This document shows positions 1,892-22,157 of a stretch of DNA of 22,412 nucleotides, one piece after another (the first letter of the stretch is position 1; the number at the start of each line of letters is the position of its first letter). The stretch covers positions 1 to 22,412 of IMG/VR virus record IMGVR_UViG_3300025889_009991. One strand, given 5' to 3'. The stretch comes from a virus. The translations under genes were made by a program, and so were the position numbers. Below the pieces are notes generated by a model, which saw nothing but the letters and a program-made list of their open reading frames with translations, was not told the DNA's origin and made no database searches.

Positions 1892-2045
1892 GTAATACCC
1901 CAGCGGGCGGTGGGTAAGCTGCACGGCTACAACACCCGCAGTGTATAACAAGTCAATTGTTCCTCCCTTCGCACAGAAAGGGTCGTTCTCCAGCTTGTGT
2001 GTACACCGGCTAGCCCACGCTACGGGCCCTTACAAGGAGAACACT
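1892..2045 (+). other. Intergenic leader with several inverted repeats
   Basis: This is the longest gap between genes in the + strand block. It holds nested arms GCGGG (1903-1907) with CCCGC (1935-1939), enclosing GTAAGC (1914-1919) with GCTAC (1926-1930). It also holds AACAA/TTGTT arms (1947-1951, 1957-1961), the palindrome GTGTACAC (1999-2006) and GCCC/GGGC arms (2013-2016, 2024-2027). It may contain an RNA structure, a terminator for the polymerase gene, or operators for the downstream HTH regulator. No T-run and no convincing sigma-70 promoter was seen, so the role is unknown. Confidence 0.3.
2034..2040 (+). promoter_or_regulatory. Ribosome binding site deciding the start of the HTH-sigma gene
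   Basis: AAGGAGA lies five bases before the ATG at 2046. It selects that start over an in-frame upstream GTG at 1941, whose extra 35 codons run through the structured leader and look non-coding. Confidence 0.8.
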
Positions 2046-2783
2046 ATGAAAGATTATAGACTAGAAATAAAAATAAAAAATAACTACTTGTTTACTAAGA
2101 TGAAGGAATACGGGATTGAAAATGCTGCGCAGTTAGCTAGAGCTATAGGTTCACACCCCTCTGCCGTAGGATATTATTTAAACCTAACTAGCCCCCCATA
2201 TACAAAGAAGGGGGAGCTAAAGGAATTAGCTAAGAAACTATGCGACTTCTTTTATTGCGACATTGAAGACCTATTTCCAGCAGAGCATTTAGAAAACGCG
2301 CTAGACAAAAACATTGTAGTCACGGAAAAGAACAAACACGAGCTATTACCTTCGAGGATGTTAGAGACAGATGATCCTTCTGTGGCTCTTATAGAACAAG
2401 AAGTTATGCAAGGTGTGAGGCAAGCCATAGCTAAGTCTTTAAGCGAAAGAGAACAAAAGGTACTGGCTTTACGTTTTGGATTAGAAGATGAAAAACCACA
2501 CACACTAGATCAAGTAGGAGAATTGTTTGGAGTTACGCCTAGCAGAATTCGGCAAATAGAAGCCAAGGCGCTTAGAAAATTAAGAAACCCCCGCAATCAA
2601 GATTTACTCTACCCCTTTTTAGAGGATAAGCACCTTGCGGCGGTTAGAGAACGCAAGCAACAAGAACTTAAACGTGCGGCAGACGAGAACGAACGCCTTT
2701 TGAATGGGTTAGAGATACTGTACCAGACAATGCAAGAACTTGAATCAGAGAAACTTAAACTGGAGAACTTTAATGACTACTAG
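2046..2783 (+). CDS. Cro/CI-type HTH fused to sigma-70 region 4
   Basis: Predicted 245-residue transcription factor. Residues about 14-78 look like a complete XRE/Cro-CI helix-turn-helix domain, ending in the typical IEDLFP. Residues about 125-183 closely resemble region 4 of RpoD-type sigma factors: SEREQKVLALRFGLED, then the region 4.2 helix with GVTPSRIRQIEAKALRKLR. Regions 1-3, including the -10-recognising region 2, are absent. A charged tail (about 195-245) is probably coiled coil. From family knowledge, region 4 contacts the RNA polymerase beta flap and the -35 element. The inference is a factor that binds its own operator and engages host RNA polymerase, as activator or as anti-host factor. 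It is probably autoregulated through the preceding gap. Its stop overlaps the next gene by 11 bases. Confidence 0.85.
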   Translation: MKDYRLEIKIKNNYLFTKMKEYGIENAAQLARAIGSHPSAVGYYLNLTSPPYTKKGELKELAKKLCDFFYCDIEDLFPAEHLENALDKNIVVTEKNKHELLPSRMLETDDPSVALIEQEVMQGVRQAIAKSLSEREQKVLALRFGLEDEKPHTLDQVGELFGVTPSRIRQIEAKALRKLRNPRNQDLLYPFLEDKHLAAVRERKQQELKRAADENERLLNGLEILYQTMQELESEKLKLENFNDY

Positions 2784-3626: not shown

Positions 3627-4125
3627 CGCCGCAGACCACCTGTATTTAATAGAAGATGACCCCGTACGTGGAGGGTTGTTTAAGGACAACGCAGACAGGT
3701 TTGATGCCCCTTTCCATGTGTATGCAGAGGTAAACGACGAGACGGGAGAAATAGCCGCAGTTGTTTGTGTGGTCATATGTAAGTTCGTACCGCAAGACGA
3801 AGTGCAATTAAAGTTTATCGCCGCAGGGAAACTTACCGATATAGAAGAAGCGCTCGAAGAAAGAGAGGCTATGCACGGGGCACTTGGTACGGTACTGTGC
3901 CCCTACTCAATATGGTCATACCAAAAAGGGCACGGAAGAAAGCTGATTAGTAACTTACTAGAAGCAACGCCCATAATGCACCCAGAGGTAGATGCGGTAA
4001 TAACTATGTCTCCACACACTCATACCGCTATGAAGTTTCATTTAAGCAACGGTGCAGGACTATTCTCTACTAACGAGGAAACCGTTAACTACGAATACGA
4101 GGTGGAAGATGTCGTACTTCACTGA
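3610..4125 (+). CDS. GNAT-like acyltransferase-fold protein
   Basis: Predicted 171-residue protein that reads like a GNAT-fold N-acyltransferase. An N-terminal strand-rich half (DETGEIAAVVCVVIC) is followed by a GHGRKLISNLLE segment, where GNAT enzymes bind the acyl-CoA pyrophosphate. A later segment, MKFHLSNGAGLF, recalls the conserved FHLxNGA stretch of malonyl-CoA decarboxylase, also GNAT-folded. The canonical Q/R-x-x-G-x-G motif is imperfect: Tyr occupies the Gln/Arg position. No signal peptide or membrane segment is visible. Phage GNAT proteins can acetylate host or phage proteins, but no substrate can be proposed from sequence. The gene sits in the run of small early genes, with its start inside the preceding gene and its end overlapping the next by 17 bases. 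Confidence 0.55.
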   Translation: MLIKCNAADHLYLIEDDPVRGGLFKDNADRFDAPFHVYAEVNDETGEIAAVVCVVICKFVPQDEVQLKFIAAGKLTDIEEALEEREAMHGALGTVLCPYSIWSYQKGHGRKLISNLLEATPIMHPEVDAVITMSPHTHTAMKFHLSNGAGLFSTNEETVNYEYEVEDVVLH

Positions 4126-4345
4126 TCCAATGGCGGCTATAGAAGAGGCGCAGTTTGTGGCTAACGCCACGCAACAAAAAATGTTTGTAGTAGAAACGGA
4201 ACCAAACCGAATAGAAGTGCTTACTCCTGAAGAAGCCTATCATGCAGACGGGTTAGTAATAGAAAAAATATCGCCCGTCCTTGAGAAAGAGGAAACAATC
4301 TATGATTACTCCGTTAGTATGCGTCGCAGCGGCCGTCTATTTTGA
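4109..4345 (+). CDS. Small hypothetical protein
   Basis: Unrecognised 78-residue protein. The segment AAIEEAQFVANATQQKMFVVE, followed by EVLTPEEAYHADG, suggests a helix then a short beta hairpin and another helix. It looks soluble and acidic. The ATG at 4109 is preferred because GGTGGAAG stands immediately before it; an in-frame ATG at 4052 would add 19 codons lying inside the GNAT-like gene. The gene overlaps the upstream gene by 17 bases and the lysin gene by 44 bases, so it is probably translated as part of the same coupled run. Confidence 0.6.
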   Translation: MSYFTDPMAAIEEAQFVANATQQKMFVVETEPNRIEVLTPEEAYHADGLVIEKISPVLEKEETIYDYSVSMRRSGRLF

Positions 4346-4706
4346 AGCGAGGGGTGAACCAACAGCAGGGCAGCTTGCTGTAGCCCATGTAATCCAAAAC
4401 AGAATCAAAGACCCACGTTACCCAGACAATGCGTGTGACGTGGTTAAGCAGGGGTACTACTGGAATGGAGTACCTATTCGTAACAAGTGCCAGTTTAGTT
4501 TTTATTGTGACGGTAAGTCGGACGATCCGAAGAACAAACAGGCATGGTTTAACGCGTTGTACATTGCAGAGTTGAGTGGTTATATCCCTGACACTACAAA
4601 CGGTGCGACTCATTATCATAATACAAAGGTGTTCCCTGAATGGGCTTACACTGGAGAAGTTACAACCAAGATACATCAGCATGTGTTTTATACAGGTATA
4701 AAATAG
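4302..4706 (+). CDS. SleB-type cell wall hydrolase (putative endolysin)
   Basis: Predicted 134-residue peptidoglycan hydrolase of the SleB/Hydrolase_2 family, named after spore cortex-lytic transglycosylases. The catalytic glutamate is probably E15 in YFEARGEP. It is followed by QLAVAHVIQNR, a YPDNACDVV stretch, CQFSFYCDGKSD and the terminal GATHYHN with FPEWAYT, covering the whole family domain with little extra. There is no clear cleavable signal peptide and no wall-binding domain, so release would need a holin or similar; none is visible nearby. The ATG at 4302 has AGAGGA about nine bases upstream, and a TTG at 4281 is the alternative. The stop overlaps the GTG of the next gene by one base. 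Role inferred: host lysis, though virion-associated wall degradation is possible. Confidence 0.85.
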   Translation: MITPLVCVAAAVYFEARGEPTAGQLAVAHVIQNRIKDPRYPDNACDVVKQGYYWNGVPIRNKCQFSFYCDGKSDDPKNKQAWFNALYIAELSGYIPDTTNGATHYHNTKVFPEWAYTGEVTTKIHQHVFYTGIK

Positions 4707-12826: not shown

Positions 12827-12992
12827 CTGGGCCAAGTTTAAGGTGGGGTCTTCTTTCTTTATACCCTGCCTTAACCCCAGAAAATCTCGCAAAGACATCG
12901 TGAATGTGACCAAGCGCCTCGCCTACAAAACAGCTACCAAAGTAGTGATTGAAGACGGGGTGCGAGGCATTCGCATATGGCGAATAGCTTAG
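12795..12992 (+). CDS. Small conserved-looking protein ending the left block
   Basis: Predicted 65-residue basic protein containing INWAKFKVGSSFFIPCL, a Lys/Arg-rich helix, then VVIEDGVRGIRIWRI. This strand-helix-strand pattern is familiar from small uncharacterised phage proteins, but I cannot name a function. Two starts are plausible: ATG 12795 (ribosome binding site weak) or GTG 12810, which follows GTAGAGAAG. Either way it overlaps the primase-helicase gene. Its stop overlaps the stop of the giant gene on the opposite strand by four bases. A 6-base-pair hairpin falls inside its last codons. Confidence 0.65.
   Translation: MIVEKVTYEINWAKFKVGSSFFIPCLNPRKSRKDIVNVTKRLAYKTATKVVIEDGVRGIRIWRIA
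12969..12985. other. Perfect 6-bp inverted repeat at the convergent junction
   Basis: ATTCGC and GCGAAT flank the 5-base loop ATATG. It lies inside the last codons of the small + strand gene and just beyond the stop of the - strand giant gene. Its position would suit a bidirectional terminator, but no T-run follows on either strand and the stem is short, so this is only a candidate. Confidence 0.25.
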
Positions 12993-15900
12993 GGGTTACG
13001 TATCTTTTCTTTCAGCGTCAGGATAACTGGCTGCAGTTTCTTGTCTACATACAACCCTTCAAATGAAGCACCCCTTCTTTCCGCCCTACCTTTTAACGAC
13101 CGCTCCATAGTATCTATATCTATGTAAGTCCAAGGATTTCTTAAGTTGTGCTGCGTGATTTCATCCATAACTTTTAGGATTGCATCATACGATTTGTCGC
13201 TTAAAGAGTTTTCGTAGTTAGTTACGGCGTCGTCTAAGTCATCAAGCAGTGCTCCTTTTTCTTGTTTCAGCTCGTTAACAAGCCCCATAACTAAGAAGTT
13301 GGAGTTTTGTATCTCTGCTACTTCGGTGTCGCTAAAGCCTAGAGTTTGACCCACTAGTTTAAATGCAGTGTAGTACTCCTCTGGTTTAACTTCCGCACCT
13401 TGCCGCGTTAGGTTGCCTTCCTCATAGAAACGTAAAGCCTTAACAGGGTTTCTAAAGAAGGCAGGTAGAAGCCCTTCCATTGCTCTCTGGTATTTACCGT
13501 CGCGTATATCGTCGTATGCGCGACTACCACTTCTTATTAAGCTACCAAATGGACCTGTACCAGTATTATAAAACCAATTAACTAGCTCTTCTTCCGTGCT
13601 CTCTCTGGGTATATCGTCTCGGAACCACAATCCATCTAGAGAAGTGGACGCACCAATATTCAACCCAGTTAAAGCCGATATAGGACCTAGCTCTACCCCA
13701 CGTTGGAGTAAGTCAGCCGTTTCGTCGCTTAGACCCAAAGACTTAGCAATACTGCTATCTTTTCCAAAATACTGTGGCAGGAAAGACTCTCGGAACCAAA
13801 GGTCTAAGTTTCGTTTACCTAGGGGGTTACCATAGTCGTCCTCATCATACCAAGGATCATCGTCTTCACCTTCAGGTCGCATAGCCTCTCGAATACCTTC
13901 CATAAGCGCCATCATAGACGTGTACAAAGGTAAACCCGTAGCGCCAGCGAACATAAAAGTCATGCCCATAGTGCCAAAGAACTGCGTAGCTGCTTGTTTC
14001 TTTTCTGCAAACGACTTGTGCATACTAAGCATGTTAAAGAAGTTACGCACCATGTAAGACGTCATTTGCATGGGGAAGGTCAAGAATTGCGTAGCTATGC
14101 GCCCTACGGCTGTCGACTTCATTAGTCTAGGCTTGTTGTAGTTGCTGTAGTTAAACAGGCCCCTATAAGTCAGGTCCATAGCCCGTTGCTGGGCTTCCTG
14201 TTGTGCAGCTTTCCCTGTTAAACCTCGCTTCTTAGCGTCAGCATAAGCAAGTTCAAAAGAAGACATGTACATAATTTCACGGTTAATGCGTTCCGTATGG
14301 TGGAATAAACCACTCATCATATTAGCTGTGCCCCTAAATATTCTAGTAGGCAACGCGCCATGCGACCTAGACGGTATCTGCCCACGCGCGGTTAAGTCCG
14401 CAGCATAGGTAGACATAAATAAGTCTCTATCGTTTGCGTAGCTCCAAGCCTCTTGCAGTGCCCTAGACAGTTCTCTGTCGGGGTTTTCTAACACGTAAGA
14501 GCTTTTGTTCATCGACGGCTCACTGAACCGCGTTTGCAAAACGCCTTCATCATCGAACTTAGAAGTGCCCAGCTTGTTGAAAGGTAAAGTAGCCATGTAC
14601 CGCGCGGCAATCTTATGTGCATTCACTCCGCCAAACTCCGCAGCAAGCACTGGTAGGCCAACAATAGGTAGTTGAGTAAGCTGGATTATCGCAGACTTAG
14701 GCGCAGAAAGAAGCCAGTAGAAGACAACTTTATTGCCAAAGCTCGCCATGCTGTCCCAGTTTACACCTTCAGCCAGCTTAGGAGGACTAGCCTCATCAAG
14801 TGCCCGTCCGGCTACTTCGTCTACTACGATCTTTAACCTAGCAGCATCAGGTCGGCCCTTTAGCTCGGCGTACGCCTGTGCAATACCATTACGTATGTCT
14901 TCAGAGAACTGTAAACGTGCAAGTTGGTTGGCACTTGTATGCTGTGAAGTCACGAAGTTACGCAGTACATCTGTGCTAAAGCCCGCAACACCCTTACGAT
15001 GGACGAACCTTCTGCGCATATCTTGGCCGGAAAGCGTCATCAAATACATTTGGTACACGCTGTCTTTAATATCCGGTGTGTTGGCACTGGGGCTCTCGTC
15101 TAGTAGCTCAAAGACTTTTTTCAACGTAGCACTAGAGTCGTTGATTTCTTTTCGGAACTCATTTGTTTGAGAGTTCTGCCCTATCTGAATGTCTTCTGAT
15201 TCAAGGGCGTCTTCGTAATTTTGACCCCGCTCTTCGGCCCGCTTACGCGCAAAGTCATTTCGAGCCACTTCAGACTCAAACATATAAAACTCACGCTGCT
15301 GCCCTTTACCTACACGCAGCCACCAATCACCGTAGCGCATAAGTGGGAAGTAAACTTCTAACCTTTTAGCTTCTTGGAAGTTCTTTGTTATTTCTGCGAG
15401 TACTACTTTCTTAGCCTCATCTGGCAGGTTAGACCTAGCTACTTTCTGTTGCAGTATAAACTGGTGCTCTTGCAAAGTGTCTTTATAAGAATCGCGCGCC
15501 ATCTTGTATATTTCAACACCGCGTTGGCCGCCATTCTCTTCCTTCTGCAGATTATTCCAACCTGCGTAGACATCGCCATCTACAGTAGCGCCTTCGTAAA
15601 CTTCTCGAATTTGATTTTCTCTACGGGTAACCGCAGCTCGAGCAGAAACTTTTTGGCCCTTAGACATTAGAGGGTTGGCTGCAACCTGTTGCTGTTTTCT
15701 ACGTAGGGCAACTAACTGGGCGTCGTTCTTCAGAGCCGTTGCTAAGTCTTTATGCTTCGCAGGGTCAAAGTTATGCAGCGTAGCCAAGTGCATAACGTCT
15801 GCAAGAATAATGGCTCCTTGCTGAAACTTCGCATTAAACTCTGCCCACTTAGGAACTTTCTCGGATAAAGCCCGTAGCATACGACCACGATAGATAGCCA

Positions 15901-18900
15901 TATCTTGTACGACGTCATTTGTAACTTTGAGATTAAGTATGGCGTCCCCAAAACTCCTAACAATACCGTCGCTAGTAAAAGTACCAAGCACGGCACGGAG
16001 CGCTTTAGCATCAATAGCTTGGTATATACTCTTTAAAAGTCTCGACGCATCAGCCCCACTACGAACCGCAGCGACTAACTCACCTAGGCTACTGACCATT
16101 GCCTCTGGTCTAGCACTTTTAGCTAGTTTATTAGCTTGCGCGCTTCCACGCTTCGCTTGCTTTTTAGCTTGGGCTACTACACTGGGGTTTAGGTTTTTAA
16201 AGGTTTTGTTTTCTTCTATGACCGTGTCAGTTAAGTCCATGAGCGACAAGAACGCATTGTCTTGGTTTCTAGGGATATTAAATAAGCTTCTAACCGCATC
16301 AAGGAATCTGCTAAGCCCACTACGTTCAACGGGGGTAACAACCGTTAAAAACTCTTGGAACTCAGGCTGTGTAAGACCATAAGACACAAACTCATACAGA
16401 TCGCTGAACACATCCAATCCTGCTTCTCTGTCAGCAAGGGCGTCGAGCGCGCGTGAAGTGAGGCCCGCTTCTTTGCGCTTATAATAAACAGTCTCTGCAA
16501 CGACCATTAGTTCCATGATCTGCTGCACTGCTTCTTGTGCTTTCGGTGATAGCAGCTCGGGGTTTCTTACATAAGCTTCCATTACTCCTACAGTAGCAGC
16601 GTGTACAGCCTCATGCAGGAATACTCTATTGTTAAGCCCCGAATCGAGTGCATCTTGAGTGGTGTTGTTTAGGTATATGGTGTTACTGGGCCCATCATAC
16701 AGCCCTTTAGAATTATAAAAATCTTGCTGCACATCCGCAGGGACATCAATAGCGACGTCGTTAACAATTACAAGCCTAGTCCCCTCAAGGAATGGCTTTA
16801 ACCTACGCGCTAACAGCTTTTCGAACGGCGTACCGTTTTGCATTACTGCATCAAACAAAGACGCAGGCTGCGGTGCATTCGCATACTCTGGGCGTAACTG
16901 ACTAGATGTCGCCTCTTCAAAACTCTCAGCTCGACGAGGTTTCTTTGATGCTGCCTGCGCTTTCGCTAATTCACGCTCTTGAGGACTAATGTCTTCTCGA
17001 GCAATAAACTTATCTATATTGGCAAGTGCGCGCCCATTGCCACGGTACTGCGGATCATTTCTAAGTTCATACAGCTTAGCCAGTTTGTCTATACGCTGCT
17101 TTTGGTATTTACCCAGTTGCTTGATTAACGCGTTGTAGTTCTTAACTCGCTTATTGCGCTCAACTAAGGCTTTCTTTTGCTCAGCAGTTTGCTTTGGCTC
17201 CGCCACCTGCTCTGGTTTTGGCGCAGCACGGGCTATTCTTTCCAATCGGCTAAGACCTGCCTCTTCCTCTATTTCAACGGGCGCAGCGGCTTCTCTTTGT
17301 GGAGTGGGATCAAATGCTTGGACTTCTTCTAAAGTCTCGAACCCATATTTTTTAAGCAGGGTGGTAAGCTTTTCGGGCTTAATAACTGTAGACGCACTAG
17401 ACACCGCTCGAGATAGAGTCTGAGTGCGTGCTTTACTTTCCGCCGTGTTTTGTGCGACCTGCGCTATTCGTGCTTCAGTTTGCTCAAGTGGCGGCCTACC
17501 CCGAGTCTTTTTAGTTCCTTTGGGTTGTAACCCAGTAACAGGGTTAACTTCAGGTCCAAGGTCTAGCTCAGGCTGCTCAAGCTCTATGGGTTCTGCTTTG
17601 GTAGGCTCTTCGAAACCCAGCTCTGGCGCACGGCGGTCGTCTTGAAGTTCTGCATCAGTTATTTCACCTATCGCAGGCCCTGCGACGGAAGGCGCTTCCT
17701 CTGGGCGCTTAGCATCTATTAGCGCACGTGCTTCACTTTCGTATAGAGCGGCTGCTTCAGGTCCCATGCTTTCCAGCACAGCGGCTTTGTTCTGGCTCAT
17801 TACTTCGTTAAATTCTGTTGCTTCTGCGGCATCCTCCCGCGCCATAGCGGAAATGCCTTCTTTCTCTTGTTGAGGCAGCTCTATAGTTTCATCTACTTCA
17901 GCAACAGGTTCTGCGGCTATTTTTTCTTGGGCTTCAATAGCGTCCGTTTCTGCTTGTGCAGAAGCTTCTTCGACTGCTCCGATGTCACCAGTAATAGTTT
18001 CCTGCCCCGCTAGCTTAACGGCTTCTTCTTCGCTCTTACCTTCTCGCATGTGCTGGTCTACACGGGCACCAAACTCCATTAGCTCCTGCTCAGTCATCTG
18101 AGTTAGATTATCGGCACGGGCTTGAGTAGATAAGATTCGCGCTATGGCATCACGCTTTGCGTTCTGGTACGCCTGACGACCAGTGGAGGTAGTTATGTTT
18201 ATGCCACTACCACCAATACTTCCCGCCGCTTCTGCAGCCGCTGCGTCTATTACAGCCTTAATGTTTTCAGAGCTTAGTATGTCTCCCGCTTGCTCACCAG
18301 TTACGCGCTTACCGGCGATTTGAGTTACTTCCTGCAAGCCACCAGTAATACCTTCTTCCAGCATTTCTTTAGGTGCGCGCCTAACGGCGGCTTTGAATGC
18401 CTCACCGGTTGTGCGGTCAACAACTTCTTCGCCTAAGTCTTTAGCCAAGCGTCTTCTTAGTATACTTCCAACAGGACCGGCAAGGTCTAACGCACCAGAA
18501 GCAAGAGACACCATAGCCGTAGTGTCGCCCGTCTTTTCTAAGTACTCAGCGATTGCCGTAGCTTGTTCTTCAGGAGGGAGGTCTTTAACTATATCTTGGA
18601 CAAAACTTAAGCGGTTACCAATAGTTTCTCCAGCAGCAAGCGAAGTACCCACGGCTAACGCACCGGGAGCCCCACCAATAACCGCAGCGCCCATGACAGG
18701 AATTATCTGCTTACTTCCTGCGCCTATGGAATAACCCAACCAATCTCTAAAGTCTGCTAAACTTTTTACGTCGGTTATTCCGGGTACAGCAGGAGCAAAT
18801 TCTTGGGTGCGGGCTTCAGACTCAGCAAGGGTGCTAAGGCGTTCCCTAGTACGAGCCATCGCTCTTTCGCTAGTTGTTTCGCTGAACTCACGGAGTTGTT

Positions 18901-19306
18901 GGCGCTCTTCTTCGCTTCCTTGTTGGTATCGTCTTAACTGGTCTAAATCAAGCGTACCCCCCGAACCTTCGGCTAGTTGCTCTGGAGTAGCCCCCTCCTC
19001 TAATTGAGTGTAAGCACCAAGATACTGACGTGCCTTGGCAATAATAGGAGAGTCAACTTGTAGGCCAATTTTAGGAACAACTGTACCGAACTCAAACCCT
19101 TGAAAGCCTTTACCCATCTGAGAAAAGAACCCACGGTCCTCGGGCTCAGGAGCACTTACATACTGTAAAAACGGATTGTCTTCAGCGGCAGGTTCTACGT
19201 ATTGTAAAAACGGGTTTTCCTCTTGAATAGTAAGACCCGAATCGCCTGTAGCAGGCGTAACGTATTGTAGGAAAGGATTTTCTTCCCCTAACTTTTGCTC
19301 CGCCAT
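12989..19306 (-). CDS. Giant polyvalent virion protein with HExxH motif and LPD38-like C-terminus
   Basis: Predicted 2105-residue protein, likely packaged and ejected with the DNA. Order: three NPFLQYV repeats (10-16, 31-37, 44-50); charged helices; a Gly/Ala-rich hydrophobic stretch (about 201-227) that could insert in a membrane; another Gly/Ala segment near 350-370; a long acidic low-complexity and coiled-coil region (about 430-800); FLHEAVHAATV with H898, E899 and H902 plus E972 in DLYEFVSYG, fitting a zinc metallopeptidase with a third ligand; helical regions; and a C-terminal portion (about 1520-1930) with hydrophobic segments and NPVKALRFYEEG resembling large polyvalent protein domain 38. 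AAGGGAGTAGTC precedes the ATG. By analogy with T7 gp16-type proteins it may form an ejection conduit; protease activity is inferred. Confidence 0.8.
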   Translation of the reverse strand: MAEQKLGEENPFLQYVTPATGDSGLTIQEENPFLQYVEPAAEDNPFLQYVSAPEPEDRGFFSQMGKGFQGFEFGTVVPKIGLQVDSPIIAKARQYLGAYTQLEEGATPEQLAEGSGGTLDLDQLRRYQQGSEEERQQLREFSETTSERAMARTRERLSTLAESEARTQEFAPAVPGITDVKSLADFRDWLGYSIGAGSKQIIPVMGAAVIGGAPGALAVGTSLAAGETIGNRLSFVQDIVKDLPPEEQATAIAEYLEKTGDTTAMVSLASGALDLAGPVGSILRRRLAKDLGEEVVDRTTGEAFKAAVRRAPKEMLEEGITGGLQEVTQIAGKRVTGEQAGDILSSENIKAVIDAAAAEAAGSIGGSGINITTSTGRQAYQNAKRDAIARILSTQARADNLTQMTEQELMEFGARVDQHMREGKSEEEAVKLAGQETITGDIGAVEEASAQAETDAIEAQEKIAAEPVAEVDETIELPQQEKEGISAMAREDAAEATEFNEVMSQNKAAVLESMGPEAAALYESEARALIDAKRPEEAPSVAGPAIGEITDAELQDDRRAPELGFEEPTKAEPIELEQPELDLGPEVNPVTGLQPKGTKKTRGRPPLEQTEARIAQVAQNTAESKARTQTLSRAVSSASTVIKPEKLTTLLKKYGFETLEEVQAFDPTPQREAAAPVEIEEEAGLSRLERIARAAPKPEQVAEPKQTAEQKKALVERNKRVKNYNALIKQLGKYQKQRIDKLAKLYELRNDPQYRGNGRALANIDKFIAREDISPQERELAKAQAASKKPRRAESFEEATSSQLRPEYANAPQPASLFDAVMQNGTPFEKLLARRLKPFLEGTRLVIVNDVAIDVPADVQQDFYNSKGLYDGPSNTIYLNNTTQDALDSGLNNRVFLHEAVHAATVGVMEAYVRNPELLSPKAQEAVQQIMELMVVAETVYYKRKEAGLTSRALDALADREAGLDVFSDLYEFVSYGLTQPEFQEFLTVVTPVERSGLSRFLDAVRSLFNIPRNQDNAFLSLMDLTDTVIEENKTFKNLNPSVVAQAKKQAKRGSAQANKLAKSARPEAMVSSLGELVAAVRSGADASRLLKSIYQAIDAKALRAVLGTFTSDGIVRSFGDAILNLKVTNDVVQDMAIYRGRMLRALSEKVPKWAEFNAKFQQGAIILADVMHLATLHNFDPAKHKDLATALKNDAQLVALRRKQQQVAANPLMSKGQKVSARAAVTRRENQIREVYEGATVDGDVYAGWNNLQKEENGGQRGVEIYKMARDSYKDTLQEHQFILQQKVARSNLPDEAKKVVLAEITKNFQEAKRLEVYFPLMRYGDWWLRVGKGQQREFYMFESEVARNDFARKRAEERGQNYEDALESEDIQIGQNSQTNEFRKEINDSSATLKKVFELLDESPSANTPDIKDSVYQMYLMTLSGQDMRRRFVHRKGVAGFSTDVLRNFVTSQHTSANQLARLQFSEDIRNGIAQAYAELKGRPDAARLKIVVDEVAGRALDEASPPKLAEGVNWDSMASFGNKVVFYWLLSAPKSAIIQLTQLPIVGLPVLAAEFGGVNAHKIAARYMATLPFNKLGTSKFDDEGVLQTRFSEPSMNKSSYVLENPDRELSRALQEAWSYANDRDLFMSTYAADLTARGQIPSRSHGALPTRIFRGTANMMSGLFHHTERINREIMYMSSFELAYADAKKRGLTGKAAQQEAQQRAMDLTYRGLFNYSNYNKPRLMKSTAVGRIATQFLTFPMQMTSYMVRNFFNMLSMHKSFAEKKQAATQFFGTMGMTFMFAGATGLPLYTSMMALMEGIREAMRPEGEDDDPWYDEDDYGNPLGKRNLDLWFRESFLPQYFGKDSSIAKSLGLSDETADLLQRGVELGPISALTGLNIGASTSLDGLWFRDDIPRESTEEELVNWFYNTGTGPFGSLIRSGSRAYDDIRDGKYQRAMEGLLPAFFRNPVKALRFYEEGNLTRQGAEVKPEEYYTAFKLVGQTLGFSDTEVAEIQNSNFLVMGLVNELKQEKGALLDDLDDAVTNYENSLSDKSYDAILKVMDEITQHNLRNPWTYIDIDTMERSLKGRAERRGASFEGLYVDKKLQPVILTLKEKIRNP
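19157..19279 (-). repeat. Three coding repeats of NPFLQYV
   Basis: The copies lie at 19259-19279, 19196-19216 and 19157-19177, in the first 50 codons of the giant polyvalent gene. All three encode the same seven residues, preceded by Glu or Asp, yet they differ at most third codon positions. That shows constraint on the peptide, not recent DNA duplication. Linkers are Pro/Glu/Ala-rich and of unequal length (14 and 6 residues). Confidence 0.9.
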
Positions 19307-19316
19307 GACTACTCCC

Positions 19317-21266
19317 TTATTGGCCTAAGACCGCCGCTGCACTACCCACTCCAAATGCTTGGTCAAAAAACGCTCTATTCTGCGCAGTGGGGTTATCTCT
19401 AAGGTTCTGAATAGCAGTGGGGTTTATGCTACTAACATCTACACTTTGAGTCGCCGTGCTGGCAGAAGCGCCTAATGGTGGCAACCCTAAAGCCGCGCGC
19501 TCTTGGTTTATTATGTTATTTAAGAACTCTTCGCCTCTACCTTCGTTCTGCGCTTGTCTATAAGCCGCGCCGTCTGGGCCTATAATACCTATTCGTTCCA
19601 TTGCTCGCTCTCGAGCATCGTTGGCGGCATCTTGTTCAGCCGCTACACCACGCTGTAGAACCCCTTGCATCGAAGCCTGCATACCGAAGTACTGACGTAA
19701 AGCTTCCGCTTCGCTTATAGGCTTACCAGCTGCTTCAGCTTCATCCATAAGTGCTTTAACGCCCCTATCTTGGGCGCTTGTTCGTTTCAAACCTTGGTCC
19801 GCAACATACCTTTGAGTTCTAGCTGTTATATCCTGCCCGCGTCTTTCGACATCACGTCCTTCTGCTGCGTCTGCCGCTTGGCGTCTAGCAGTTGTCACTG
19901 CTTGAGCTACAGACATACCGTCTCTTACATTCGACTCTACAGTATTACGCGCTTCTTTCTCAGCTTCAAACTGGCTCAAGCCAAGCTCACGTAGCTCGCC
20001 AATTAACTTGTCCATATCGGCAACAGAGGCTTCTGCAGCGGAGAGTTTTTCACCCGCAATTCGTTCTTCTTCAGCCGTATAGCCTGCGCCAAAACCACCT
20101 AGACCCTGTTCCGCGCCCTTGGCAAGTGCGGCTCTGAGTTTACGGCGACGCTCCATTTCGGGGTTAAACCTAGCTTCGCGTTGAGCTTGAAGAGCTTCTT
20201 GAGCTGTTTTTCGCTCTGCCATTAAATCTTCGGCCCCAGTTAGCTCTCTTAGTCTTTCACCGGCAGCAAGAGACTCTGCTCCCACATCGCGCGCCATTTG
20301 CTCTCTTGCAAAACGAAGTATGTCTTCGTCTGGCTCTTCCACTTGGGTAGGGGCGTAAAGATTAGGGTCGCTCATATAATCGTACTCAACTAGCTCACCT
20401 TCTGCGTAGCCTTTAACCTGACCACCCATAGCCATACCAGCACGGGCGCGGGCTGCATCTGCCTCGATGTTGCGCACCATGTTAGAGTAAGACGCTAATT
20501 CTTGTTCAATTCGACGGAGTTCTTCTTTTTCCGCACCGGCAGCTTTACGGGCTTCGTATAAGTCTTGAAGCTCCATAAATCGCTTTAACTGCTCAGCCAT
20601 CGGGTCTTTTTCTTTTGGCTTATCGAGCTGACTTTCGTAGCCAGTAAGCTTCTGCAACGCACCTGCTATACCGGTGTCATACATGATGTTCATAGCTGAG
20701 TTGTAGGGGTCTGCAAGGACATTATAGTCGCTCATGCGGCGCCCCCGTGCCATACGCTCGTTTTGAGCTGCATCGGCGGCTTGGTTAAGCTTGGTATCCA
20801 TCCCTTTTATTTTGCCTAAGAAACCACCTTCGTTGTACCCAATAAGACCACCACTAGCCGCGAATCGCATATTAGGAGCAGGTTGTGTAGGTAGCCCACC
20901 CATCATTTGACGAGCTTGTGATTGCTGTACTTGTCGGCCACGTTGTTGCATGCCGGGGCTTAAACTTTGCAGTATTCCAGCAATACCTTCCATTGTTTGC
21001 ATTTGACGCTGGCCTTCAATAGTAGGGGGCATGGGTTGTGGCGCGCTCATAGCTAATTCATTTTGAGCAGACTGTATAAGATCAAAAGCTTCTTGTGTCT
21101 TAAGTAGCGCCTTGGTGCGCGGATCAAGGTCTAATTTATCTAGATCGTTGTCCACTACGTCCATAGCCGCAGCCATTTGCGGATTGTTTTGTGCTGGCAT
21201 CGCAGGTGCTTGCGTAGGTTGTGGTGACGTAGGAGCACCCTGCATTAAAGATTGTATTCCGTTCAT
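19317..21266 (-). CDS. Coiled-coil-rich putative internal virion protein
   Basis: Predicted 649-residue protein, rich in Ala, Gln, Glu and Arg. The first 130 residues are Pro/Gln/Met-rich and probably disordered. Two short Gly-rich motifs stand out: ASGGLIGYNEGG (137-148) and AMGGQVKGYAEG (279-290); similar GGxVxGYxEGG strings recur in marine podovirus structural proteins I remember. Long helical stretches (about 222-275 and 305-540) should form coiled coils. There is no membrane segment and no enzyme motif. Position between two other virion-type genes suggests an internal core or ejection protein; a structural role is inference. AGGAGCATAA precedes the ATG, nine bases after the upstream stop. 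Its stop is ten bases before the giant gene's ATG, so these are probably one operon. Confidence 0.7.
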   Translation of the reverse strand: MNGIQSLMQGAPTSPQPTQAPAMPAQNNPQMAAAMDVVDNDLDKLDLDPRTKALLKTQEAFDLIQSAQNELAMSAPQPMPPTIEGQRQMQTMEGIAGILQSLSPGMQQRGRQVQQSQARQMMGGLPTQPAPNMRFAASGGLIGYNEGGFLGKIKGMDTKLNQAADAAQNERMARGRRMSDYNVLADPYNSAMNIMYDTGIAGALQKLTGYESQLDKPKEKDPMAEQLKRFMELQDLYEARKAAGAEKEELRRIEQELASYSNMVRNIEADAARARAGMAMGGQVKGYAEGELVEYDYMSDPNLYAPTQVEEPDEDILRFAREQMARDVGAESLAAGERLRELTGAEDLMAERKTAQEALQAQREARFNPEMERRRKLRAALAKGAEQGLGGFGAGYTAEEERIAGEKLSAAEASVADMDKLIGELRELGLSQFEAEKEARNTVESNVRDGMSVAQAVTTARRQAADAAEGRDVERRGQDITARTQRYVADQGLKRTSAQDRGVKALMDEAEAAGKPISEAEALRQYFGMQASMQGVLQRGVAAEQDAANDARERAMERIGIIGPDGAAYRQAQNEGRGEEFLNNIINQERAALGLPPLGASASTATQSVDVSSINPTAIQNLRDNPTAQNRAFFDQAFGVGSAAAVLGQ

Positions 21267-21275
21267 TTTATGCTC

Positions 21276-22157
21276 CTATGATTTACCAGACAGCAGGTCG
21301 AGTATGCTCAAAATATCACTTCCCGCCCCTTGCAAACTTTGAAGTCCGCTAGGCTCATAGTACGAGTAACTTTGAGTTTCCAGTGGTAGCCCCTGCAACA
21401 ATGACTGCATGAACTGTACGTTTTTAAGCGGATAGTCTCGCTCTTGCTCGAACTGCGCTATGTCCGCTCCAATACCCTGCTGCTCGATAGCACGTTGTCC
21501 TGCACCCGCGTCTTGAAGGGCTTTTGCAACATCAAACCCATAACGATTAGTAAGCTCTTGCGCTTGCATTTGTCGACGCGCTTCTTCGTTAAACTGGTTT
21601 TGGGCTTGTTCAAACGCTTGTTGATAACCCGTACCTGTAATACCCGCCATGCGGTCTAGTAAACCACGCTGCAATTCAGCTTCTGCAACACCTTGACGTG
21701 AACCACCGTAGGCACCTGCTTTACCGTACTGGCTTTGAAGGTTTTGGGCTGCTATTTCAGCTTGACGGCGTGCCGCATCGTATTGAGGCTGAAGTGCACC
21801 CTGTAGGTAGGGTGTCATATACTGCTGTAGTACATTGCCAGAAGCCGGAGTATAAGTACCTGTTTCACCCGCCGCCGCTTGAGCTGCTGTTGGTGCAGCG
21901 TAACCTGCCCCTGTAAAACTACCCCCAGCACCAATAGCCCCCATGTTGCTAGTGGGCATTTGAAGCGCACCAAGTCCTTGATATGCTTGAGTTTGAAGTG
22001 CAGACTCGCCCGCAGTCAAAGGACCCATGTACGCCTGATACGGCAGTCCCGCCAGTGCTTGGCCTCGACCTAGCATCTCAGTTACGTAAGGACCCGCCCA
22101 ACTAGATAGCGAGGACTCTTCTGCGTTTAAAATATTTGGTCCGACTTGAGTAGCCAT
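21276..22157 (-). CDS. Ala/Gln-rich putative internal virion protein
   Basis: Predicted 293-residue protein. A Gly/Ala/Thr-rich N-terminal half (GAGGSFTGAGYAA) leads into YMTPYLQGALQPQYDAARRQAEI, a long helix with AQNLQSQYGKAGAYGGSRQGVAEAELQ and further Gln/Arg-rich helices to about residue 235. The last 50 residues are again Gly/Ser-rich. The YGKAGAYGGSRQ pattern recurs in my recollection of uncharacterised aquatic phage virion proteins. The composition matches small internal core/ejection proteins that accompany giant ones. No enzyme, signal peptide or membrane segment is visible. AGGT lies upstream of the ATG, ten bases from the preceding stop. Confidence 0.7.
   Translation of the reverse strand: MATQVGPNILNAEESSLSSWAGPYVTEMLGRGQALAGLPYQAYMGPLTAGESALQTQAYQGLGALQMPTSNMGAIGAGGSFTGAGYAAPTAAQAAAGETGTYTPASGNVLQQYMTPYLQGALQPQYDAARRQAEIAAQNLQSQYGKAGAYGGSRQGVAEAELQRGLLDRMAGITGTGYQQAFEQAQNQFNEEARRQMQAQELTNRYGFDVAKALQDAGAGQRAIEQQGIGADIAQFEQERDYPLKNVQFMQSLLQGLPLETQSYSYYEPSGLQSLQGAGSDILSILDLLSGKS

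Follow-up and report, generated by a model that had tools for sequence, protein, structure and literature searches.

This locus raises the question of what a 2,105-residue phage protein does and which of its parts is most informative about that role. We examined a window consisting of the whole 22,412 nucleotides of a virus record (IMG/VR record IMGVR_UViG_3300025889_009991, positions 1 to 22,412); the record is a 22.4-kb fragment, and homologous contigs reach 60–65 kb. A protease-like zincin was already known in proteins of this kind, and the newer result is a pairing between the N-terminal tag and a C-terminal module of the protein encoded upstream. Of all parts of the 2,105-residue protein, the tags proved the most informative. 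Taken as a whole, it is likely that this is the third and largest ejection protein, that its tag docks on the C-module of the preceding protein, that such pairs are swapped as cassettes, and that a mid-chain zincin acts after ejection.

Gene order and position of the giant gene

The open reading frame described in the original prediction is present on the minus strand at 12989–19306 and encodes 2,105 residues with no internal stop. Its gene closes a run of three on the minus strand, which encode 293, 649 and 2,105 residues in that order. The 293-residue protein (21276–22157) occupies the gp7 position and has a weak match to the DNA ejection protein family phrog_4287 (4.7e-6). The 649-residue protein (19317–21266) is without any family match, and we assign it to the preceding ejection protein position (gp20/gp15) by its location and by the pairing described below; 10 nt separate its gene from the giant gene downstream. 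Gene order in the window and in homologues, together with phrog_4287 for the first gene, identifies a gp7-gp20-gp16-like cassette with the large protein last. The giant polyvalent protein holds the position of the last and largest ejection protein (P22 gp16, T7 gp16, N4 gp50), as its homologues also indicate, and it is probably the last protein that a short-tailed phage ejects into its host.

A replication block on the plus strand fills the remainder of the window and converges with the minus-strand virion block at about 12830–12990, where the GC skew changes sign. This block includes a gene (2043–2783, plus strand) whose product combines a Cro/C1-type HTH with sigma-70 region 4 (E 1.8e-16) and may be a sigma-like factor of the phage. 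It also includes a cell wall hydrolase gene (4281–4706, plus strand; Hydrolase_2, E 1.5e-23), likely a lysis gene set apart from the virion genes.

A conserved zincin domain in the middle of the chain

A putative zincin (MPTase) domain spans residues 820–1066 (16109–16849, minus strand). It contains the sole HExxH of the protein, H898-E899-A-V-H902 (16601–16615), and residue 972 is glutamate (16391–16393), the predicted third zinc ligand, within a conserved E-F-V-x-Y-G-L-T. The original prediction had called this glutamate conserved-looking and had named frequent loss of HExxH among homologues as evidence against a peptidase. For an unbiased view of motif loss, we used loci recruited by C-terminal or scattered peptide patterns without HExxH, chiefly YFPLMRY and RINREIM. 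Among these, H898, E899 and H902 were identical in 55/55 covered homologues, and E972, Y976 and Q984 were each identical in 56/56, so the motif is retained beyond what chance would give. Nine sequences at 23%–72% identity kept H898, E899, H902, T905, E972, G977, Q984, L987 and F1001. Five longer exceptions fall outside the conserved set. In two of them (L124 and L125), which keep the same LPD39/PLxRFG half, another zincin with HELGH/HEMGH and FSEWYAD or FNEWYAD stands at this place; L131 has HEAMH, L144 has HEASH, and L153 is without HExxH at the zincin site.

An AlphaFold2 model of the domain, built with 70 sequences (pLDDT 89.8, pTM 0.84), has a helix at 8–21, strands at 25–29, 49–52 and 57–61, and then helices. 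HExxH lies in model helix 74–95 and E153 (E972 of the protein) in helix 151–160, which is the zincin order. At the level of helices, the structure prediction suggested by the original prediction sets the motif and the glutamate on two canonical zincin helices, in the arrangement described for the MPTase by Iyer et al. 2017 (PMC5512222), and not in the scattered fold named there as evidence against a peptidase. Viral Foldseek matches of the model were LPD proteins, internal core proteins and virion RNA polymerases (vRNAPs), with E values down to 1.8e-7; against the PDB there were weak zincin matches, lethal-factor entries first (best E 0.14).

Sequence searches gave similar relatives. By tblastn, residues 890–1031 matched internal virion proteins of the LUZ19/phiKMV gp37 type and, less strongly, N4-like vRNAPs that carry the same zincin signature. 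LUZ19 gp37, which has HEAVH at 423, matched the vRNAP family phrog_2206 within the zincin domain. Among solved virion proteins, a profile search returned 9sfn_G (E=1.4e-68), a match that was expected because the profile included LUZ19 gp37, and PhiM1 gp48 (8vb2_A, E=1.3e-5). No Pfam model covered the HExxH region, 0/70 zincin members matched a credible peptidase family, and a single-sequence scan with the zincin gave no match. Based on these comparisons and the predicted fold, we identify the domain as the zincin MPTase of Iyer et al. 2017, common to N4-like vRNAPs and phiKMV-type ejection proteins.

The proposal of an injected zinc metallopeptidase therefore stood in part: homology and the model support a zincin-type domain in a polyvalent protein of the virion-injected type, whereas the accompanying LPD38 assignment did not hold. 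The domain is a putative protease, for which we rank cutting of its own chain slightly ahead of cutting of a host protein. Maturation of its own chain had also been suggested; as self-maturation within the virion this is less likely, because the virion model of PhiM1 gp48 retains its zincin-homologous domain (PMC11440229) and N4 vRNAP reportedly enters the virion unprocessed (PMC5512222). The intact zincin at mid-chain most likely acts after ejection, when it would either free the chain from the LPD39/PLxRFG part or cut a host protein.

It is possible, though we think somewhat doubtful, that once injected the zincin serves as an effector, cutting a host protein and leaving its own chain alone. 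Iyer et al. list host-protein cleavage as an option (PMC5512222), and the domain is found in injected proteins of several phage groups; against this, such an effector has no known substrate, and the zincin appears to have other domains on both sides, a common setting for autoproteases. A catalytically dead domain with a structural role in the ejectosome is unlikely. The domain does belong to the ordered PhiM1 ejectosome core (PMC11440229), but none of the 55–56 covered homologues departs from the H, E, H and E, and L124 and L125 replace the domain with another zincin at the same site.

Domains outside the zincin

The C-terminal half carries an LPD39 domain (PF18858; residues 1104–1320, 15347–15997, minus strand), matched at 2.8e-10 with 40.6 bits against a curated cut-off of 27 and detected in 45/45 homologues. 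It is followed by a PLxRFG "tail-700" helical region (NCBIfam NF032893; residues 1317–1824, 13835–15358, minus strand; 4e-100, 336 bits against a curated cut-off of 100). This region lies inside a match to the DarB-like antirestriction family PHROG 10089 over residues 1158–2093. The C-terminus had been described as LPD38-like; LPD38 (PF18857) had no Pfam match in the protein or in 45 homologues, and the Pfam and NCBIfam searches recast this end as LPD39 plus PLxRFG. Hydrophobic Gly/Ala-rich stretches, also listed in the original prediction, occur at about residues 195–290.

We make no claim of homology between the C-terminal half and the N4 vRNAP CTD (hhalign probability 0.3%), and a model of this half compared with the PDB by Foldseek matched no solved fold. 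The giant protein of Xanthomonas phage SAC (L010, 2289–9314) has two HExxH motifs (926 HEVLH, 1128 HEMGH) and an LPD22 N-terminus.

N-terminal tags are swappable cassettes

The protein begins with predicted tandem docking tags, NPFLQYV at residues 10–16, 31–37 and 44–50 (19157–19279, minus strand). These are the repeat tags of the original prediction, which gave them no role. Repetition at this end is common among homologues and exceeds chance: 53/78 distinct N-termini showed a self-repeat at p<=0.01, compared with 12/312 internal control windows. The repeated unit itself is entirely different among homologues. Proteins with closely similar bodies, such as L152 and L159 (91% identical) or L040 and L106 (84%), nevertheless have unrelated first 50 residues, and close-body pairs with unlike tags, L152/L159 among them, are also unlike in the C-terminus of the upstream protein. 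The same tag was found on essentially no other genes of the same loci. Across homologues the tag thus behaves as an exchangeable cassette, and this extends to proteins whose bodies are 91% identical.

Covariation of tags with the C-terminus of the preceding ejection protein

Tags covary with the last ~25–40 residues of the preceding ejection protein. Pairs include NPFxQF with an upstream xxLxxNPxxxxxFDxxFGxGAAAxxLG, FSFEEA with GxxYxTxRGPAxWDGxxF, WTPPSDAV with WxxLKPGQTLVGPDGxTYTKK, and GRDLSAELF with RTxQEVMDALKAxGYTxK; several further pairs exist. A short repeated N-terminal motif usually faces an upstream mini-domain of about 30–35 residues, and a reversed format also occurs, in which an N-terminal mini-domain (YEYxGQxYDI, RFPDGT) faces a short upstream peptide. 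In the window, the predicted partner of the NPFLQYV tags is the C-terminal module of the 649-residue protein, INPTAIQNLRDNPTAQNRAFFDQAFGVGSAAAVLGQ (19320–19427, minus strand).

We note that the pairing data come mostly from metagenomic contigs. In a partial Mantel test controlled for similarity of both protein bodies, tag and upstream C-terminus remained associated (r=0.62, p=0.0005 for 69 proteins; r=0.66, p=0.0002 for 34 non-redundant proteins). Among close pairs, C-terminus similarity was 0.56 when the tag was the same (n=27) and 0.13 when it differed (n=21), against a distant-pair background of 0.11. Upstream C-termini were similar in 27 pairs, none of which had different tags. When 100 distinct N-termini were tabulated by tag type and upstream module type (6×6), 95 fell on the diagonal and 0 off it; this table is partly circular because pairs already observed served to define the six module regexes, a concern that applies less to the Mantel test and to the single-motif scans.

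These scans retrieved sequences by one motif at a time. With NPFAQFA alone, the predicted FDxFGxGAA module ended the preceding gene in 62/66 N-terminal cases, although the tagged proteins were mostly unrelated 645-residue P22-type gp16s. Conversely, the FDxFGxGAA module ended 69/3181 ORFs, and an NPF-type tag came next in 68 of the 69. Exceptions to the NPFAQFA pairing were L194/L272/L292 and Kosakonia phage Kc259 (L177, 5001–8117), in which a lytic transglycosylase begins with one NPFAQFA and the preceding gene is without the expected module. RGPAxWDG alone gave 20 C-terminal cases, of which 18 were testable, as L317 and L327 stop at a contig edge. The next gene had an FSFEEA-type tag in 13/18 by strict regex and the variant SFTLSDL in 1/18. 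In L305, L334 and L335, the tagged gene lay 0.8–1.6 kb off, with other reading frames between; the remaining case, L341, has the module sequence of L334 and is grouped with these three on that resemblance. The WTPPSDA scan showed pairing in 26/36 cases by strict regex and 32/36 by eye, the other four being single chance occurrences.

Three independent arrangements thus break the adjacency of tag and module that most genomes keep. In one of these loci, L335, the C-module gene and the tagged gene flank a gene for a 115-residue, secreted-looking protein (4031–4375, minus strand) that ends in PTFSYEDAFGLPAKN. It is a third tag carrier and may be another cargo. Genome contigs scanned for RGPAxWDG gave chance matches only, a tblastn of two C-modules in named phages found DSL-LC05 alone, for the NPF type, and phiKMV-type and N4-type relatives had no obvious tag type.

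The P22 and Sf6 group shows a coupled swap

Pairing of this form was also visible in the P22 group, in which we inspected eight phages. Many relatives of P22 gp20 aligned by tblastn over residues 1–427 of 471 only. In P22 and BTP1, gp20 ends SGI(K/Q)FTVE and gp16 starts MKVTANGKTFxFPxGTSTEDIG; in SI5, Bp96115, Gally, Brookers, CUS-3 and Sf6, gp20 ends SSLWGD and gp16 starts MAK(A/P)WK(D/E)VIAS. The gp20 bodies of P22 and SI5 agree at 406/421 residues, and BTP1 and Bp96115 share 182/190 residues of gp16 60–260, yet in each comparison both terminal segments differ.

These segments can be set beside published hybrids. In the passages of Leavitt et al. consulted here (PMC10883804), P22 carrying Sf6 gp16 alone or Sf6 gp20 alone formed no plaques (<1e4 PFU/mL), and the two together restored growth (5e10 PFU/mL). 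Sf6 gp16 alone was still packaged into P22 virions, without function, and P22 gp20 lacking its last 33 residues was non-functional. The authors inferred a gp16/gp20 interaction, without mapping it in those passages. Since Sf6 gp16 is packaged but non-functional without its partner, the matched pair appears to be needed after assembly. Tag/module pairing could explain why P22 and Sf6 ejection proteins fail with each other. For N4, a published model has gp50-NTD associating with gp51 (PMC12633501).

A docking model and its alternatives

From the covariation and the published P22/Sf6 hybrids, we infer that successive ejection proteins dock as a pair, through direct binding and with a role at the conduit end. 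The NPFLQYV ×3 front end would dock on a module of roughly 36 residues at the extreme C-terminus of the preceding ejection protein. If tag binds module, the giant protein would be tied to the end of the DNA conduit, delivered there, and would follow the conduit protein into the cell. Peptide/module pairs of this kind exist in many mutually exclusive types, and phages swap them as cassettes reaching across the gene junction.

Linkage alone could carry tag and module together, because both are adjacent in most genomes: the junction would be a recombination hot spot, and both termini would travel together without touching. Tag and module usually fit within about 300 nt (with the 10-nt gap between the genes in the window), and the flanking genes show separate divergence levels. 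We nevertheless consider this explanation improbable. Matched pairs persist across 0.8–1.6 kb and other reading frames in three arrangements, and the same pair occurs on unrelated bodies, 645-residue P22-like gp16s and polyvalents of 2,000+ residues. Moreover, within a pair a short motif usually faces a mini-domain, and published P22/Sf6 hybrids require both proteins matched (PMC10883804). We give equally little credence to a role of the tags in virion loading, in which tag and upstream C-terminus would both bind a third protein, scaffold for example: the P22 scaffold N-loop facilitates gp16 incorporation (PMC12005531, PMC4992974) and L335 has a small third protein with a tag, but Sf6 gp16 enters P22 virions without its gp20 partner and is non-functional there, which weakens a scaffold-loading role (PMC10883804).

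The pairing between successive ejection proteins probably serves delivery rather than loading, because P22 packaging needs no match. More generally, short-tailed phages probably use a modular docking code, in which more than 10 mutually exclusive peptide/mini-domain pairs fix which cargo follows the conduit. The cassettes would be exchanged among unrelated cargo bodies, and the code may recruit further tagged proteins, as in L335. This bears on how different ejection proteins stay in register and enter the cell in order. P22 and Sf6 gp16 and gp20 work as a pair and are incompatible singly, and our analysis points to two short terminal segments as a candidate cause that can be tested directly. 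For unannotated phages, the pairing also provides a means of identifying injected cargo and cognate ejection proteins.

Comparison with known systems

In modular polyketide synthases, C-terminal/N-terminal pairs of docking motif and domain order successive giant proteins. The likeness to the pair in the window is one of analogy only, as other proteins and another process are involved.

The polyvalent proteins of Iyer et al. 2017 resemble the window protein in being giant phage proteins with an HExxH..E zincin, LPD39 and a late-gene position, and the starting point of that study, the MPTase of N4 vRNAP, is homologous to the window zincin (PMC5512222). The window protein differs from them in being without an RNA polymerase or methylase domain and in having LPD39, not LPD38. 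The searched text of Iyer et al. describes no terminal tags or pairing (PMC5512222).

The phiKMV-type tetrameric ejection proteins (LUZ19 gp37, PhiM1 gp48; PDB 8vb2, 9sfn) have a homologous zincin and are the same type of ejection protein, but their bodies beyond the zincin have no detectable similarity to the window protein, and they have no tandem tags. Residues 268–528 of PhiM1 gp48 were labelled endolysin/exotransglycosidase-like by the authors (PMC11440229), and our profile puts the zincin at 377–514. LUZ19 gp37 had no Pfam lysozyme match, and the PHROG named "endolysin" matches it from profile position 168 onward only. For large ejection proteins of the phiKMV type (L008 gp37, PHROG 342, PhiM1 gp48), the endolysin/exotransglycosidase label seems to have been carried over from relatives that have an SLT domain at the N-terminus; the region so labelled matches a zincin, and we suggest that "endolysin domain" hides a metallopeptidase domain in these proteins.

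P22 gp20/gp16 and Sf6 gp12/gp13 differ from the window in docking type (FTVE with VTANGKTFxFPxGTS; SSLWGD with MAKAWKDVIAS), and, as far as tested, their gp16 bodies have no relation to the window protein. They are like it in gene order, in the coupled swap of upstream C-terminus and downstream N-terminus, and in a published need for matched pairs.
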